A stretch of DNA of 37,083 nucleotides from Candidatus Moraniibacteriota bacterium (GTDB lineage: Bacteria > Patescibacteriota > Minisyncoccia > Moranbacterales > JAPLXC01). The notes beneath the pieces were generated by a model. It made no database searches and was not told the origin of the DNA. It saw nothing but the letters and a program-made list of their open reading frames with translations. The DNA lies in the NCBI GenBank assembly GCA_026396275.1, contig JAPLXC010000007.1, positions 1 to 37,083 of the forward strand, given 5' to 3'. A program made the translations under genes and the position numbers. Position 1 is the first letter of the stretch. The number at the start of each line of letters is the position of its first letter. Of this stretch, positions 4,743 through 29,451 are shown in pieces.

Positions 4743-4751
4743 ATTATTTTT

Positions 4752-4801
4752 GGTGCGGGGGCGAGGCAGGGAGGCGTGATAGGCCGCTACACTAACGATC
4801 C
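4752..4801 (-). pseudogene. 5' tRNA half (Asp/Gly-like) with CCCCGCACC tag
   Basis: 4767-4801 read on the minus strand resembles the first 35 bases of tRNA-Asp (GGATCGTTAGTGTAGCGG and onward, ending CTCCCTG in the anticodon loop). It then breaks and runs through CCTCGC into CCCCGCACC (4752-4760). There is no 3' half nearby. The next bases could supply a GCC anticodon (Gly), but the tag makes this uncertain. Confidence 0.6.
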
Positions 4802-4914: not shown

Positions 4915-4931
4915 GGAAAATTTTAACCGAG

Positions 4932-5005
4932 TAGCAGGGGTGGGACTCGGACCCACGACCCACGGATTATGATTCCGTTGCTCTAACCAACTGAGCTACC
5001 CTGCC
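4932..5005 (-). tRNA. tRNA-Met(CAT), elongator type
   Basis: 74 bases, CCA not encoded. Acceptor GGCAGGG pairs with CCCTGCT (G-U at the end); D-arm GCTC/GAGC; anticodon stem ACGGA/TCCGT around ATCATAA; T-arm GTGGG-TCCGAGT-CCCAC. Position 55 of the T-loop is C rather than the usual T. A lysidine-type tRNA-Ile(CAT) is the alternative; the arm sequences favour elongator Met. Confidence 0.9.
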
Positions 5006-5013
5006 GCATAATT

Positions 5014-5090
5014 GGTGCGGGGTGAATCCTGTATAAACCAATTGCCTGCCCCGTGAATTCCAAAGGAATTTTACGGGGAGCTACCCTGGC
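5014..5090 (-). pseudogene. 5' tRNA half with D-arm hairpin insert and CCCCGCACC tag
   Basis: GCCAGGGTAGCT (5079-5090) looks like the acceptor and start of the D-arm of a tRNA. A 34-base insert follows (5045-5078): a perfect hairpin CCCCGT..AATTCC/GGAATT..ACGGGG plus CAGG. The tRNA-like sequence then resumes (CAATTGGTTTATACAGG, ATTCA; 5023-5044) and ends at CCCCGCACC (5014-5022). The promoter at 5091-5119 would start transcription at the first bases of this fragment. Confidence 0.6.
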
Positions 5091-5119
5091 ATTTTACAGC
5101 TAAAATTACTATATATCAA
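5091..5119 (-). promoter_or_regulatory. Promoter of the Met-Asp tRNA unit
   Basis: Minus-strand -35 TTGATA (5119-5114), 17-base spacer, -10 TAAAAT (5096-5091). Predicted start near 5084, inside the acceptor strand of the 5' tRNA fragment. Confidence 0.65.
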
Positions 5120-8219: not shown

Positions 8220-10484
<2,265 letters not shown>

Positions 10485-24625: not shown

Positions 24626-24765
24626 CAGGTGATTATTTCGATTAGTTTTCTAGTTTAGTTTAAATAAATTTAGATAAGCTATAAGAGTAGGTCACCAAAA
24701 TCATTATCCCGTCTTTTTCAGAAAAAGATCGGGACAAGCTAGAAAGAGAGGTGACTTTACTTAAA
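24626..24765 (+). promoter_or_regulatory. Long structured 5' leader of the zinc-ribbon gene
   Basis: About 140 untranslated bases lie between the predicted start and the ATG at 24766. They contain a hairpin TCCCG-t-CTTTTTC/GAAAAAG-at-CGGGA (24707-24734), a possible GGTGA/TCACC long-range pair, and the ribosome site AGAGAGGTGA (24745-24754). Such a leader is long for this genome and may be regulatory, for example temperature or ligand responsive; no known riboswitch was recognised. Confidence 0.45.
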
Positions 24766-25044: not shown

Positions 25045-25147
25045 GATTGACCAAAAATTGGCGGAAGGGGTGAGATTCGTCCCGCACCTTTACCTTTTTA
25101 GACTCGTTCTTAATTTGCTATTTAATTCTTCTAACTGGTTTTTGATG

Positions 25148-25213
25148 CGGAAGAGGAGGGATTCGAACCCCCGAGGCCTTTGCAAACCTAACGGTTTTTC
25201 GCGACCCTGCACC
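25148..25213 (-). pseudogene. 3' half of a tRNA-Ser, tag GGTGCAGGG
   Basis: On the minus strand GGTGCAGGG (25213-25205) is followed directly by an anticodon-loop-like TCGCGAAAA, a variable-arm remnant, a good T-arm (GGGGG-TTCGAAT-CCCTC), the acceptor strand CTCTTCC and discriminator G. The 5' half is missing. The loop suggests anticodon CGA. CTCTTCC pairs perfectly with GGAAGAG of the 5' fragments at 25500 and 25557. Confidence 0.65.
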
Positions 25214-25224
25214 AAAAATGCTCG

Positions 25225-25287
25225 CGGAAGCGGGAGGATTCGAACCTCCGGTGCCCTTGCGGACACAACAGTTTTTCTCGACCCCGT
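25225..25287 (-). pseudogene. 3' half of a tRNA-Ser, tag TACGGGG
   Basis: TACGGGG is followed by TCGAGAAAAACTG, a variable arm TGTCC-gcaa-GGGCA, a perfect T-arm (GGAGG-TTCGAAT-CCTCC), acceptor strand CGCTTCC and discriminator G. No 5' half is attached. CGCTTCC fits the acceptor GAAAGCG of the fragment starting at 25605 in six of seven pairs. Confidence 0.65.
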
Positions 25288-25294
25288 AAGAAAG

Positions 25295-25381
25295 CGGAAG
25301 GGGTGAGATTCGAACTCACGGTACCGTTTCCGATACGACAGTTTTCAAGACTGTTCCCTTAAACCACTCGGGCACCCTTCC
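25295..25381 (-). tRNA. tRNA-Ser(TGA)
   Basis: 87 bases, complete, CCA not encoded. Acceptor GGAAGGG/CCCTTCC, anticodon stem ACAGT/ACTGT around CTTGAAA, long variable arm, T-arm GTGAG-TTCGAAT-CTCAC, discriminator G. It is flanked on its 5' side by four 5' tRNA fragments and on its 3' side by two 3' halves. Confidence 0.95.
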
Positions 25382-25388
25382 GCTTTTC

Positions 25389-25429
25389 TACGGGGCAAGC
25401 TGGTGCCTTACCATTCGGCGCAACCCTCC
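25389..25429 (-). pseudogene. 5' tRNA half ending CTTG, tag CCCCGTA
   Basis: GGAGGGTTGCGCCGAATGGT (from 25429) continues through a D-arm and anticodon 5' strand to CACCAGCTTG, then CCCCGTA (25395-25389). About 34 tRNA-like bases, broken in the anticodon loop. The isotype cannot be fixed; the acceptor does not match either 3' half well. Confidence 0.5.
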
Positions 25430-25436
25430 ATTTTTT

Positions 25437-25500
25437 GGTGCGGGGCAAGCCGCCTCATTCCTGCCTGCCGGCAGGTAGGCAACCACTCTGGCACTCTTCC
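25437..25500 (-). pseudogene. 5' tRNA-Ser half with D-loop palindrome, tag CCCCGCACC
   Basis: GGAAGAGTGCCAGAGTGGTTG (25500-25480, 21 bases) is interrupted by a near-perfect palindrome with core CCTGCCGGCAGG (25460-25479). It resumes as AATGAGGCGGCTTG and ends at CCCCGCACC (25445-25437). Its acceptor GGAAGAG and its tag both fit the 3' half at 25148-25213. Confidence 0.6.
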
Positions 25501-25510
25501 TTACTTAAAA

Positions 25511-25557
25511 GGTGCGGGATTCAAGACTGTTCCCTTAAACCACTCGGGCACTCTTCC
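25511..25557 (-). pseudogene. 5' tRNA-Ser half ending in the anticodon loop, tag CCCGCACC
   Basis: 38 bases from 25557 to 25520 match intact tRNA-Ser(TGA) except for one acceptor base (GGAAGAG for GGAAGGG), through the anticodon TGA and one further A. The sequence then changes abruptly to TCCCGCACC. Confidence 0.7.
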
Positions 25558-25562
25558 GCTCT

Positions 25563-25605
25563 ATACGGGACAAGCAGGTACGTTAAACCACTCCGGCACG
25601 CTTTC
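25563..25605 (-). pseudogene. 5' tRNA-Ser half, tag TCCCGTA
   Basis: GAAAGCGTGCCGGAGTGG (from 25605) continues TTTAACGTACCTGCTTG and then TCCCGTA. It sits at the predicted transcription start of this locus. The acceptor strand fits the 3' half at 25225-25287. Confidence 0.55.
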
Positions 25606-26301: not shown

Positions 26302-26329
26302 GCGCTTGGCAGGAATCGGATCCCACACC
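26302..26329 (-). pseudogene. 3' tRNA fragment, tag GGTGTGGG
   Basis: GGTGTGGG (26329-26322) leads into a T-loop-like TCCGATT, CCTGC and the acceptor strand CAAGCGC with G as discriminator. CAAGCGC is perfectly complementary to GCGCTTG of the 5' fragment at 26557. The intact tRNA-Arg lies between the two pieces. Confidence 0.5.
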
Positions 26330-26335
26330 TTTTTG

Positions 26336-26409
26336 CGTCCTCAAGAGGATTCGAACCTCCGGCCTTCGGCTCCGCAAGCCGACGCTCTATCCAGCTGAGC
26401 TATGAGGAC
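26336..26409 (-). tRNA. tRNA-Arg(GCG)
   Basis: 74 bases, complete, CCA not encoded. Acceptor GTCCTCA/TGAGGAC, anticodon stem TCGGC/GCCGA around TTGCGGA, T-arm GGAGG-TTCGAAT-CCTCT. The anticodon is GCG, whereas bacteria usually read CGU and CGC with ACG edited to inosine. Confidence 0.92.
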
Positions 26410-26476
26410 AAGAAAAGGTGAGGGACAAGCCTGCTTTGTTATAAGCAACTTTATCCCGCACTAAAGCGTAGCTTTT

Positions 26477-26557
26477 GGTGCGGGGCACACGCTCTACCTG
26501 CCCCGTAGTTTCCGATGTCGCATCGGAATACTTCGGGGTCCACTGAGCTACAAGCGC
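26477..26557 (-). pseudogene. 5' tRNA half with D-loop hairpin, tag CCCCGCACC
   Basis: GCGCTTGTAGCTCAGTGGA (26557-26539) and TAGAGCGTGTG (26496-26486) join into a perfect tRNA 5' half with complete D-arm. A 42-base insert separates them (26497-26538): a CCCCG hairpin whose centre TTCCGATG/CATCGGAA resembles 5338-5356, ending ACGGGGCAGG. CCCCGCACC follows at 26485-26477. Acceptor partner is at 26302-26308. Confidence 0.65.
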
Positions 26558-27282: not shown

Positions 27283-29451
27283 ATGATTACTCTTGAAACT
27301 CCTCTCAAAAATCTCCCCCGCATCGGTCCGAAATATGTTAAAAACCTGAAAAAACTCGGCATCGCGACTGTCGGAGATCTGCTTTTCCATTTTCCTTTCC
27401 GCTATGATGACTACTCCAAAATCTTGCCGGTTTCTTCTTCTTCCCGGGGCGATACAGTAACCGTTGAGGGAGAAATCATTGAAAGCCGGACTACCCGCAC
27501 CTGGAAACGAAAAATGTTTTTGACTGAAATCCTGCTCAAAGATGATTCCGGAACTATCCGGGCTTTGTGGTTCAATCAGCCGTATCTGGCCGAAAACTTG
27601 ACTGAAGGAAAAAAGATCAGGATCAGCGGAAAAATAACAGGCGACGCCAGCGGACTTTACTTTTCCAATCCGGCTTGGGAACTGGCTTCGCGCGCTCCTA
27701 CTAACACCGGTCGGCTGGTGCCGGTCTATCCGGAAACTGAAGGCGTAACCTCGCGCTGGCTCCGCTGGCAAATCCAATTTCTCCTAAAGTTCAACTTTAG
27801 GATAAGCGATCCGGTACCGGAAAAAATTCTCAAGAAATTAAATCTTCCGGGAACAGACAAGGCCATAAATTACATCCATTTTCCCGACACACTTGACCAC
27901 GCTCTCGTCGCCCAAAAAAGATTCGCTTTCGAAGAAATGTTTTTGGTACAGCTTAAGTCCCTGCAAATTCGTTCCAGCTGGCAAAAAGAGCAGGCGGTAA
28001 AAATCAAATTTAATGAAAAGCTGATTAAGAATTTTGTAAAAAAACTTCCTTTCAAACTCACCGACGCCCAGCGAAAATCAGCTTTTGAAATCCTGAAAGA
28101 CCTCGAAAAATCCCGGCCAATGAACCGGCTGCTTAACGGCGACGTGGGATCGGGCAAGACAGTCGTAGCCGCCGTTGCTTCTTTGCAGGCGATTAACAAG
28201 GGATATCAAGTCGCTATTATGGCACCGACCGAGGTTTTGGCTAGGCAGCATTTTGATAGTTTTATTAAGTTATTCTCCAGTTACAAAATAAATATTGGAC
28301 TTCTTACAAATTCATATAAGATGATAACTTGTCATCCCGAACTTGTTTCGGGATCTAATAATAAGATGCTGAAACACCTGCCCGCATCGCTATGCGAAGC
28401 ATTGCAGGCGGGAGTTCAGCATGATACCAGAACAAATCTCCTCAAAAAAATCCAATCCAGCCAAATTAATCTTGTCATAGGCACTCACGCCCTTATTCAA
28501 GAAGATATCCGTTTCAAAAATCTGGCTTTAATTATTGTTGATGAACAGCACCGCTTCGGCGTCACCCAGCGGGCTTATTTGCAACAGAAATCTTCTGAAA
28601 TAAACGACGGGCTTCCGGAAAAAATCCCTCACTTCTTAACTATGACCGCCACTCCCATACCCCGCACTCTGGCTCTGGCTTTTTTTGGAAATTTAGATAT
28701 CTCAATCCTGGACGAAATGCCCGCCGAGCGCAAAAAAATAATCACCGGGATTGTCAATCCTGTTGAAAGAAATAAAACTTATGAATTCATTCGTGCTGAA
28801 ATTAAAAAAGGCCGCCAGTGTTTTATTATCCTGCCTTTAGTGGAAGAGTCAGAAATACTAACTGAAGTGAAAGCGGCTGTTCAGGAATATGAGCGGCTGT
28901 CCCGAGAAATTTTTTCTGATCTTAAGCTCGGCCTTATTCACGGCCGGCTAAAGGCCGATGAAAAGGAAAAGGTGATGCGGGAGTTTGCCGGGAAAAAAAT
29001 TGACATCTTGGTTGCCACTCCGGTTGTGGAAGTAGGAATTGACATTCCCAACGCCACCGCGATGATTATTGAGGACGCTGACCGCTTTGGATTATCCCAG
29101 CTCCACCAATTCAGGGGAAGAATCGGCCGGGGCAAATACCAGTCATACTGCTTTTTATTCACCAGCAGCAATTCTTCAAATGTCAGAGCAAGATTGAAGG
29201 CGCTGGTTGAAAGTGAAGACGGCTTTAAGATAGCCGAGAAAGATTTGGAACTTCGCGGTCCGGGAGAATTTTTCGGCACCCGCCAGTCGGGCCTTCCTGA
29301 CATCGCCATGGAAAATCTGGCTAACGTTCGCCTTATCCAAATCGCCCGCGAAGAAGCGCAGGAATTGCTTAAATCTGATCCGCCGTTAAAAAATTATCCC
29401 TACCTTAAAAAAGCTTTGCAAAAATTTGAGCAAGAAATTCATTTGGAATGA
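27283..29451 (+). CDS. recG: ATP-dependent DNA helicase RecG with palindrome-derived insertion
   Basis: Remodels stalled forks and Holliday junctions. 722 residues, slightly long. N-terminal wedge OB domain (about 55-135), helicase motifs G286-D-V-G-S-G-K-T293, M-A-P-T-E-V-L-A, D420-E-Q-H423, T-A-T-P-I-P-R-T, and the motif V region V-V-E-V-G-I-D-I-P-N with Q-L-H-Q-F-R-G-R-I-G-R-G. All are intact. Residues 347-384, between motifs Ia and II, are extra and read H-P-E-L-V-S-G-S and N-K-M-L-K then V-Q-H-D, the peptides made by a palindromic repeat. A second small palindrome encodes L-L-K-F-N-F-R-I (27782-27802). Start ATG at 27283, no Shine-Dalgarno. Confidence 0.95.
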   Translation: MITLETPLKNLPRIGPKYVKNLKKLGIATVGDLLFHFPFRYDDYSKILPVSSSSRGDTVTVEGEIIESRTTRTWKRKMFLTEILLKDDSGTIRALWFNQPYLAENLTEGKKIRISGKITGDASGLYFSNPAWELASRAPTNTGRLVPVYPETEGVTSRWLRWQIQFLLKFNFRISDPVPEKILKKLNLPGTDKAINYIHFPDTLDHALVAQKRFAFEEMFLVQLKSLQIRSSWQKEQAVKIKFNEKLIKNFVKKLPFKLTDAQRKSAFEILKDLEKSRPMNRLLNGDVGSGKTVVAAVASLQAINKGYQVAIMAPTEVLARQHFDSFIKLFSSYKINIGLLTNSYKMITCHPELVSGSNNKMLKHLPASLCEALQAGVQHDTRTNLLKKIQSSQINLVIGTHALIQEDIRFKNLALIIVDEQHRFGVTQRAYLQQKSSEINDGLPEKIPHFLTMTATPIPRTLALAFFGNLDISILDEMPAERKKIITGIVNPVERNKTYEFIRAEIKKGRQCFIILPLVEESEILTEVKAAVQEYERLSREIFSDLKLGLIHGRLKADEKEKVMREFAGKKIDILVATPVVEVGIDIPNATAMIIEDADRFGLSQLHQFRGRIGRGKYQSYCFLFTSSNSSNVRARLKALVESEDGFKIAEKDLELRGPGEFFGTRQSGLPDIAMENLANVRLIQIAREEAQELLKSDPPLKNYPYLKKALQKFEQEIHLE
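28321..28434. repeat. Nested palindromic insertion in recG
   Basis: ATCCCGAA (28334-28341) pairs with TTCGGGAT (28347-28354), and ATGCTGAA (28366-28373) with TTCAGCAT (28415-28422). Inside the second pair, replacing its usual short loop, sits another palindrome with CCTGCCCGC and GCAGGCGGG ends (28377-28412). The frame stays open through all three. Confidence 0.85.

Follow-up and report, generated by a model that had tools for sequence, protein, structure and literature searches.

How does one intact tRNA-Ser(UGA) gene come to lie among halves of other serine tRNA genes whose ends carry complementary tags? The locus occupies positions 25605 to 25062, minus strand, of the window, by which we mean the whole 37,083-nucleotide stretch analysed, a contig of Candidatus Moraniibacteriota bacterium (JAPLXC010000007.1). 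The host genome (810 kb on 22 contigs, 99.7% complete) encodes 47-48 tRNAs that cover all amino acids. A preliminary description had likened the halves to split tRNA genes, with a tRNA gene interrupted by an element with inverted ends and then decayed as the rival idea. In minus-strand order, the parts of the locus are the following (^ marks a junction).

25571-25605, minus strand: 5' half a, tRNA-Ser, GAAAGCG...CTTG, outermost, partner gone
25558-25570, minus strand: tag a, TCCCGTATAGAGC
25520-25557, minus strand: 5' half b, GGAAGAG...CAGTCTTGAA
25508-25519, minus strand: tag b, TCCCGCACCTTT, pairing 12/12 with b'
25446-25500, minus strand: 5' half c, GGAAGAG...GGCTTG
25460-25479: CCTGCC palindrome of 20 bp inside the D-loop of half c
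25432-25445, minus strand: left hairpin arm c, CCCCGCACCAAAAA, pairing 13/14 with c'
25396-25429, minus strand: 5' half d, GGAGGGT...CAGCTTG, a decayed tRNA-Ser
25382-25395, minus strand: left hairpin arm d, CCCCGTAGAAAAGC, running on into the inner acceptor stem
25295-25381, minus strand: intact tRNA-Ser(UGA), gene TGA, 57.5 bits
25282-25295, minus strand: right hairpin arm d', GCTTTCTTACGGGG, from the inverted-repeat search
25225-25281, minus strand: 3' half d', TCGAG^AAAAACTG...CGCTTCCG
25205-25218, minus strand: right hairpin arm c', TTTTTGGTGCAGGG, from the inverted-repeat search
25148-25204, minus strand: 3' half c', TCGCG^AAAAACCG...CTCTTCCG, acceptor strand 7/7 with c
25080-25091, minus strand: right arm b', AAAGGTGCGGGA, pairing 12/12 with b
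25062-25079, minus strand: 3' remnant b', CGAATCTCACCCCTTCCG, truncated, last 18 nt kept

The inverted-repeat search revealed that the complementary tags nest as b(c(d[intact]d')c')b'. All 12 positions pair between b and b', 13 of 14 between c and c', and 19 of 21 between d and d' when the inner acceptor stem is included; tag a is without a surviving partner. Three nested inverted pairs arose in none of 1000 dinucleotide shuffles at seed 9 or 10, and in 15 of 1000 at seed 8. The four 5' pieces, the intact gene and two 3' halves of the preliminary description are thus all present, as are its complementary tags and the full acceptor match between c and c' (GGAAGAG/CTCTTCC), but it had overlooked the third 3' piece (25062-25091), had given tags a and b a CCCC start where they begin TCCC, and had not recognised the nesting of pairs b, c and d around the core.

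Half b is 98% identical to the 5' part of the intact gene over 41 nt (repeat family D3), and remnant b' matches its 3' end at 19 of 19 positions (repeat family D5). As genes of their own, the separate halves score below tRNA level. The outer pieces bear marks of decay, namely the D-loop palindrome in c, the lost partner of a and the reduction of b' to 18 nt. On the plus strand (window 25148-25346), each of the three tRNA-Ser 3' halves is matched in antisense by Rfam family RF04351 (Plastid-psbl-rps4 3'UTR), which suggests that this family is an antisense trnS artefact.

Serine tRNA genes with the anticodons GCT, TGA, CGA and GGA are all intact in the host genome, and Ser(UGA) is supplied, among about 47 tRNAs, by a single gene, the nest core at 25295-25381. 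The core must therefore be the working copy and the halves dispensable. This bears directly on the possibility that the outer halves are functional and are joined after transcription, as in a split or intron-containing tRNA, with the inner tRNA as part of a large spliced intron. Such an arrangement would fit the complementarity of the arms, whose end pairs change on both sides (CCCCG/CGGGG versus TCCCG/CGGGA), the acceptor stems that often pair 7/7, and the outer copies that rejoin to perfect cloverleaves, as in the relative G010. It is at odds with the intact genes for all isoacceptors and with the cmscan of the window, in which tRNAs alone were matched and no intron family and no group I or group II ribozyme was found. 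Several outer copies are, moreover, truncated, interrupted in the D-loop or short of stem bases, and in one congener pair (G051/G058) the outer copy evolves faster than the inner. We consider functional halves highly improbable. The split-tRNA reading of the preliminary description fell as well: the halves lie in cis, nested round an intact gene, the outer halves vary faster between congeners and have acquired additional insertions, and Ser(CGA) and Ser(GGA), whose intact copies it had proposed to look for, were found intact. Its rival idea proved correct in outline. Interruption and decay stand; what it had missed is that the cargo is a complete tRNA-Ser that took over, and that the arrangement recurs throughout the genome.

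Further elements of the same kind lie elsewhere in the window.

26302-26557, minus strand: second nest, outer tRNA-Arg, GCGCTTG...CAAGCGC, 7/7
26501-26538 and 26454-26485, minus strand: hairpins that break the outer gene of the Arg nest
26413-26425 and 26321-26334: arms of the Arg nest, around the intact tRNA-Arg(GCG) at 26335-26409
4743-4801, minus strand: tRNA-Asp 5' half (4762-4801) ending CCCCCGCACCAAAAA, directly upstream of an intact tRNA-Asp(GTC)
5009-5091, minus strand: broken tRNA 5' half ending TTCA^CCCCGCACC, directly upstream of tRNA-Met (4931-5005)
5049-5078: D-loop hairpin within that broken 5' half
24702-24738, minus strand: solo element of this form that lacks a tRNA, CTTG^TCCCGATC...GACGGGA^TAATG

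The genome-wide tally of nests was made on the stretches flanking all tRNAs. Another nest, of Ser(CGA), lies on contig 2. When the flanks of all 47 tRNAs were read by eye, about 12 proved to be bracketed by complementary arms of the YCCCG/CGGGR type (Ser-TGA, two Ser-CGA, Val-TAC, Gly-CCC, Ile-GAT, Thr-TGT, Leu-CAA, Leu-GAG, Ala-CGC, Arg-GCG and Pro-TGG); 8 of these tRNAs exceeded all 20 shuffles in an automatic arm score. Outside the arms lie outer tRNA pieces, many recognised by eye, around Val, Gly, Ile, Thr, Leu, Pro, Arg and Ser. The Val nest, for instance, reads GGATCCT...CTTCGCTTATTCA^CCCCGCACC, the Val gene, then GGTGCGGGG^CAAACCGAAG...AGGATCC, and the Gly nest GCGGATG...CCTTCCCAAG^...^CAAGGTTG...CATCCGC. 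Both the 5' and the 3' flanking halves surpassed 200 shuffles for six intact tRNAs (Val-TAC, Gly-CCC, Ile-GAT, Ser-TGA and both Ser-CGA), the other armed tRNAs being one-sided or too decayed in this test. Where the outer gene is recognisable, its amino-acid identity nearly always equals that of the inner gene, while its acceptor stem differs from the inner one and is usually fully paired. Palindromic repeats also occur in frame as peptides inside two essential proteins encoded in the window, ligA (8220-10472) and recG (27283-29451), as in Rickettsia palindromic elements.

Most relatives in the order carry, beside the same neighbour gene, one plain tRNA-Ser(UGA). A nest occupies this position in G051 and G058 (family f4) and in G010 (f11), and other or unplaced positions in G006 (f7) and G121 (f8). 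The outer gene of G010 rejoins perfectly (GGAGGAG/CTCCTCC, GCAGTCTTG^AAAACTGC), and the same architecture, with outer acceptors at 7/7, was found in Sungiibacteriota (L195) and Falkowbacteria (L198). Across 384 genomes of the class, the junction motif GGTGCGGGGCAAG gave 69 matches versus 3 for its reversed control; the contexts include Val-CAC in Val (L094, L115, L116), Met in Met (L101) and Leu in Leu (L114), and, at L100 (G283), a 5S rRNA, identified by eye, between the same arms within an older decayed 5S rRNA. A search of the phylum with CTTGCCCCGTAGAAA returned mostly solo or chance matches and one clear new nest, Val-GAC in Val, in another class (L287). Independent nests are present in Moranbacteria, Falkowbacteria, Sungiibacteriota, other families of the class and another class of the phylum. 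The pattern CGGGGTCGNGAAAAACYG, whose matches on genome contigs are mostly chance outside Patescibacteria, was usable for CPR matches only. Matches of GGTGCGGGGCAAG in FKBP- and prfB-like coding sequences (L097, L112) were dismissed as chance, and those of AGGGGTCGGGAAAAACTG in f7 genomes (L061-L066) were set aside as a different hairpin family behind gene 3' ends.

Two further elements came to light in these genomes. Hairpins of the family AGGGGTCGGGAAAAACTGGGTTTTCCCG (L061-L066, L078, L080) stand behind gene 3' ends and are followed by a second, diverged copy of the last codons (rpsI, another ORF). Upstream of tRNA-Ser(UGA) in f7 and f8 (L038, L052, L056, L060, L064, L073) lies a conserved element with a tRNA-Ser-like start, GGAAGCATGGCCGAGTGGG, and then two hairpins; compensatory changes affect 8 of its 25 predicted pairs, and it may represent either a tRNA-like regulatory RNA or a further kind of decayed tRNA.

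Which of the two genes in a nest is native can be read from genomes of other families. G079 and G121 belong to one genus and share the locus. The gene is uninterrupted in G079 (GGGAACAGTCTTGAAAACTGTC), and in G121 a gene of the G079 type is broken at the anticodon loop, as CTTG^TCCCGCACC, a tRNA-Ser, then GGTGCGGGA, so that an empty and a filled site can be compared directly. In a tree of tRNA-Ser(UGA) genes, the outer copy of G121 groups with G079 and its inner copy with other genera; similarly, the outer copies of G051 and G058 fall among other f4 genera and the inner ones among f8 sequences, the separating split having support of 95/98. Together with the empty and filled pair, these placements show that the resident is the outer gene and the newcomer the inner one. 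Between the congeners G051 and G058, the inner copy differs by 1 change in 88 nt and the outer by 7 in 93 plus a 19-nt insertion, which shows relaxed evolution of the outer copies in this one pair. For the window's own genome, the events are inferred from these genomes of other families.

The same comparisons weigh on a purely local origin, in which a hairpin arose in a tRNA gene and a nested copy was made by template switching at the palindrome, with no foreign DNA. The near-constant match of inner and outer identity would follow naturally from such copying, as would the identical T-arm of the inner and outer Val genes in the host genome (G000) and a repeated rpsI end that is identical over about 26 nt (L095). 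In most nests, however, the inner and outer acceptor stems are different yet fully paired, and the tree places the inner copies of G121 and G051/G058 with other lineages. Local duplication is thus quite unlikely, in our judgement.

The arms also occur without a tRNA. Solo hairpins of the form CTTG^YCCCG...CGGGR^T number 11 in the host genome versus 0 in a reversed control, which makes the arms members of a palindrome family that is scattered over the genome and has CTTG at its foot. The cassette, when folded as single-stranded DNA, yields an unbroken hairpin topped by the tRNA (z = -4.8). Its right-hand flanks vary (TCGNG, TGAA, CTTG or none), and so do the apparent element ends among loci. 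TIR transposons and MITEs are defined by terminal inverted repeats together with a constant target-site duplication; here the flank combinations CTTG..TGAA, CTTG..TCGNG and CTTG..CTTG come with inverted arms and no constant target duplication. Had insertion been purely random, armed tRNA cassettes would also be expected at plainly neutral sites outside tRNA genes, and none were found there. No transposase or recombinase tied to the arms was found. The host genome encodes two RAYT-like Y1 transposases; we rejected RAYT as the mover, as these two genes, together with 30 in 9 relatives, lack CTTG-CCCCG hairpins and have other palindromes or none. The two host ORFs, G000:C18:3480 (L092) and G000:C5:68358 (L093), contain palindromes of their own, TCGAGGAC/GTCCTCGA and TTTGGAGGTT/AACCTCCAAA.

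Beside the CCCCGCACC...GGTGCGGGG hairpin, duplicated gene ends were observed at L098 (G317), L121 (G403), L120 (G338) and L095 (G202), in genes that we take, from their translations, to be recA, htpX, mreB and rpsI. These duplicated 3' ends of protein genes resemble attL/attR scars, and tRNA fragments left by mobile-element integration are common (PMC9897764); both would agree with nests being what is left of larger phage or ICE elements that entered tRNA genes with a replacement tRNA and later lost their interior. Standard integration, by contrast, yields a restored gene and one fragment, with no complete foreign gene between the old halves. Furthermore, the arms begin right beside the tRNA, and the window ORFs near the Ser locus, read by eye, held no integrase remnants. 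We regard this origin as unlikely.

We therefore favour, with a probability of roughly 0.8, a matryoshka of serial tRNA-Ser(UGA) gene replacements by hairpin-armed cassettes; its core of insertion, replacement and decay is well supported. In such a short cassette, a complete tRNA-Ser(UGA) gene would stand between a left arm, (C/T)CCCG..., and its complement on the right, ...CGGG(G/A), and arms and tRNA presumably moved as one unit. Its target would be the anticodon loop of the resident tRNA-Ser(UGA), where it would enter beside CTTG and destroy the gene, and the dead halves would then decay; the cell would survive on the working gene for that codon which the cassette supplies. The next cassette would strike the new resident in the same loop, and the rings that build up in this way would enclose, at their centre, the youngest gene and the only one that still functions. 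Wrecks within wrecks would be the outcome of small hairpin-flanked tRNA pieces that struck the resident gene time after time and took its place. The rule of same identity probably stems from rescue selection, from a target preference for tRNA loops or from both. It would follow if single-copy tRNA genes are struck and only inserts of the same tRNA are survivable, and homology, or a preferred CTTG target in tRNA loops, may contribute. Movement may have passed through single-stranded DNA recognised by a putative REP/IS200-like enzyme.

Essential stable-RNA genes are usually regarded as vertically inherited, with mobile DNA tolerated chiefly at their margins. In the nests, the cargo seems to consist of the smallest essential genes themselves, a foreign copy of the same kind replacing a disrupted resident repeatedly and across lineages. 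Such replacement would offer a direct route for the horizontal exchange of tRNA and 5S genes, would explain why Patescibacteria genomes are rich in tRNA fragments and in spurious ORFs derived from tRNAs, and would make the nests a relative time series of replacements. More tentatively, and with rather less than even odds, Patescibacteria may harbour homing tRNA genes: mobile tRNA (or 5S rRNA) cassettes in hairpin arms that spread horizontally, enter the anticodon loop of the cognate resident and take over the role of that gene. Having taken on an essential function, such cassettes could not be lost, only replaced by the next one. We found no description of nested tRNA genes, or of palindromes in tRNA genes, in the open-access literature; an earlier one may exist.

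Several known systems share features with the nests. Archaeal split and intron-containing tRNA genes are likewise broken at the anticodon loop and have complementary GC-rich half ends, but there the halves are the sole source of the tRNA, whereas here a bacterial host has intact isoacceptor genes (Ser GCT, TGA, CGA and GGA) and the halves are decaying. Group I introns in bacterial tRNA anticodon loops share the insertion site; the insert here differs in carrying a tRNA, with no ribozyme found. Integrative elements with attB sites in tRNA genes resemble the nests in their target, in leaving tRNA fragments and in preserving function (PMC9897764). They are marked by attL/attR, a restored hybrid gene and an integrase, in place of which the nests show a unit of about 0.1 kb, both old halves flanking a complete foreign gene whose ancestry differs from that of the outer one in the tested pairs. 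Rickettsia palindromic elements also place palindromes within the genes of a small genome, but they lie in frame within functional proteins and bring no gene with them (PMC3733652), whereas the nests destroy and replace the host gene. Finally, REP/REPIN palindromes, mobilised by RAYT (TnpA-REP) proteins, which are IS200/IS605-like HUH enzymes, have a tetranucleotide 5' of a GC-rich hairpin, dispersed solo copies and a single-strand hairpin form. Like REP, the CTTG^YCCCG..CGGG elements are dispersed palindromes whose 5' foot is a conserved tetranucleotide. The foot itself, CTTG, differs from the GTAG/GTGG of REP (PMC6006769) and from the CGTC class in RPE-like repeats (PMC3733652), and a cognate RAYT is flanked by the same palindrome in REP systems, unlike the 2 RAYT-like genes here and the 30 in 9 relatives. 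What further sets the nests apart from REP/REPIN is the complete tRNA or 5S gene that they hold in the hairpin loop.
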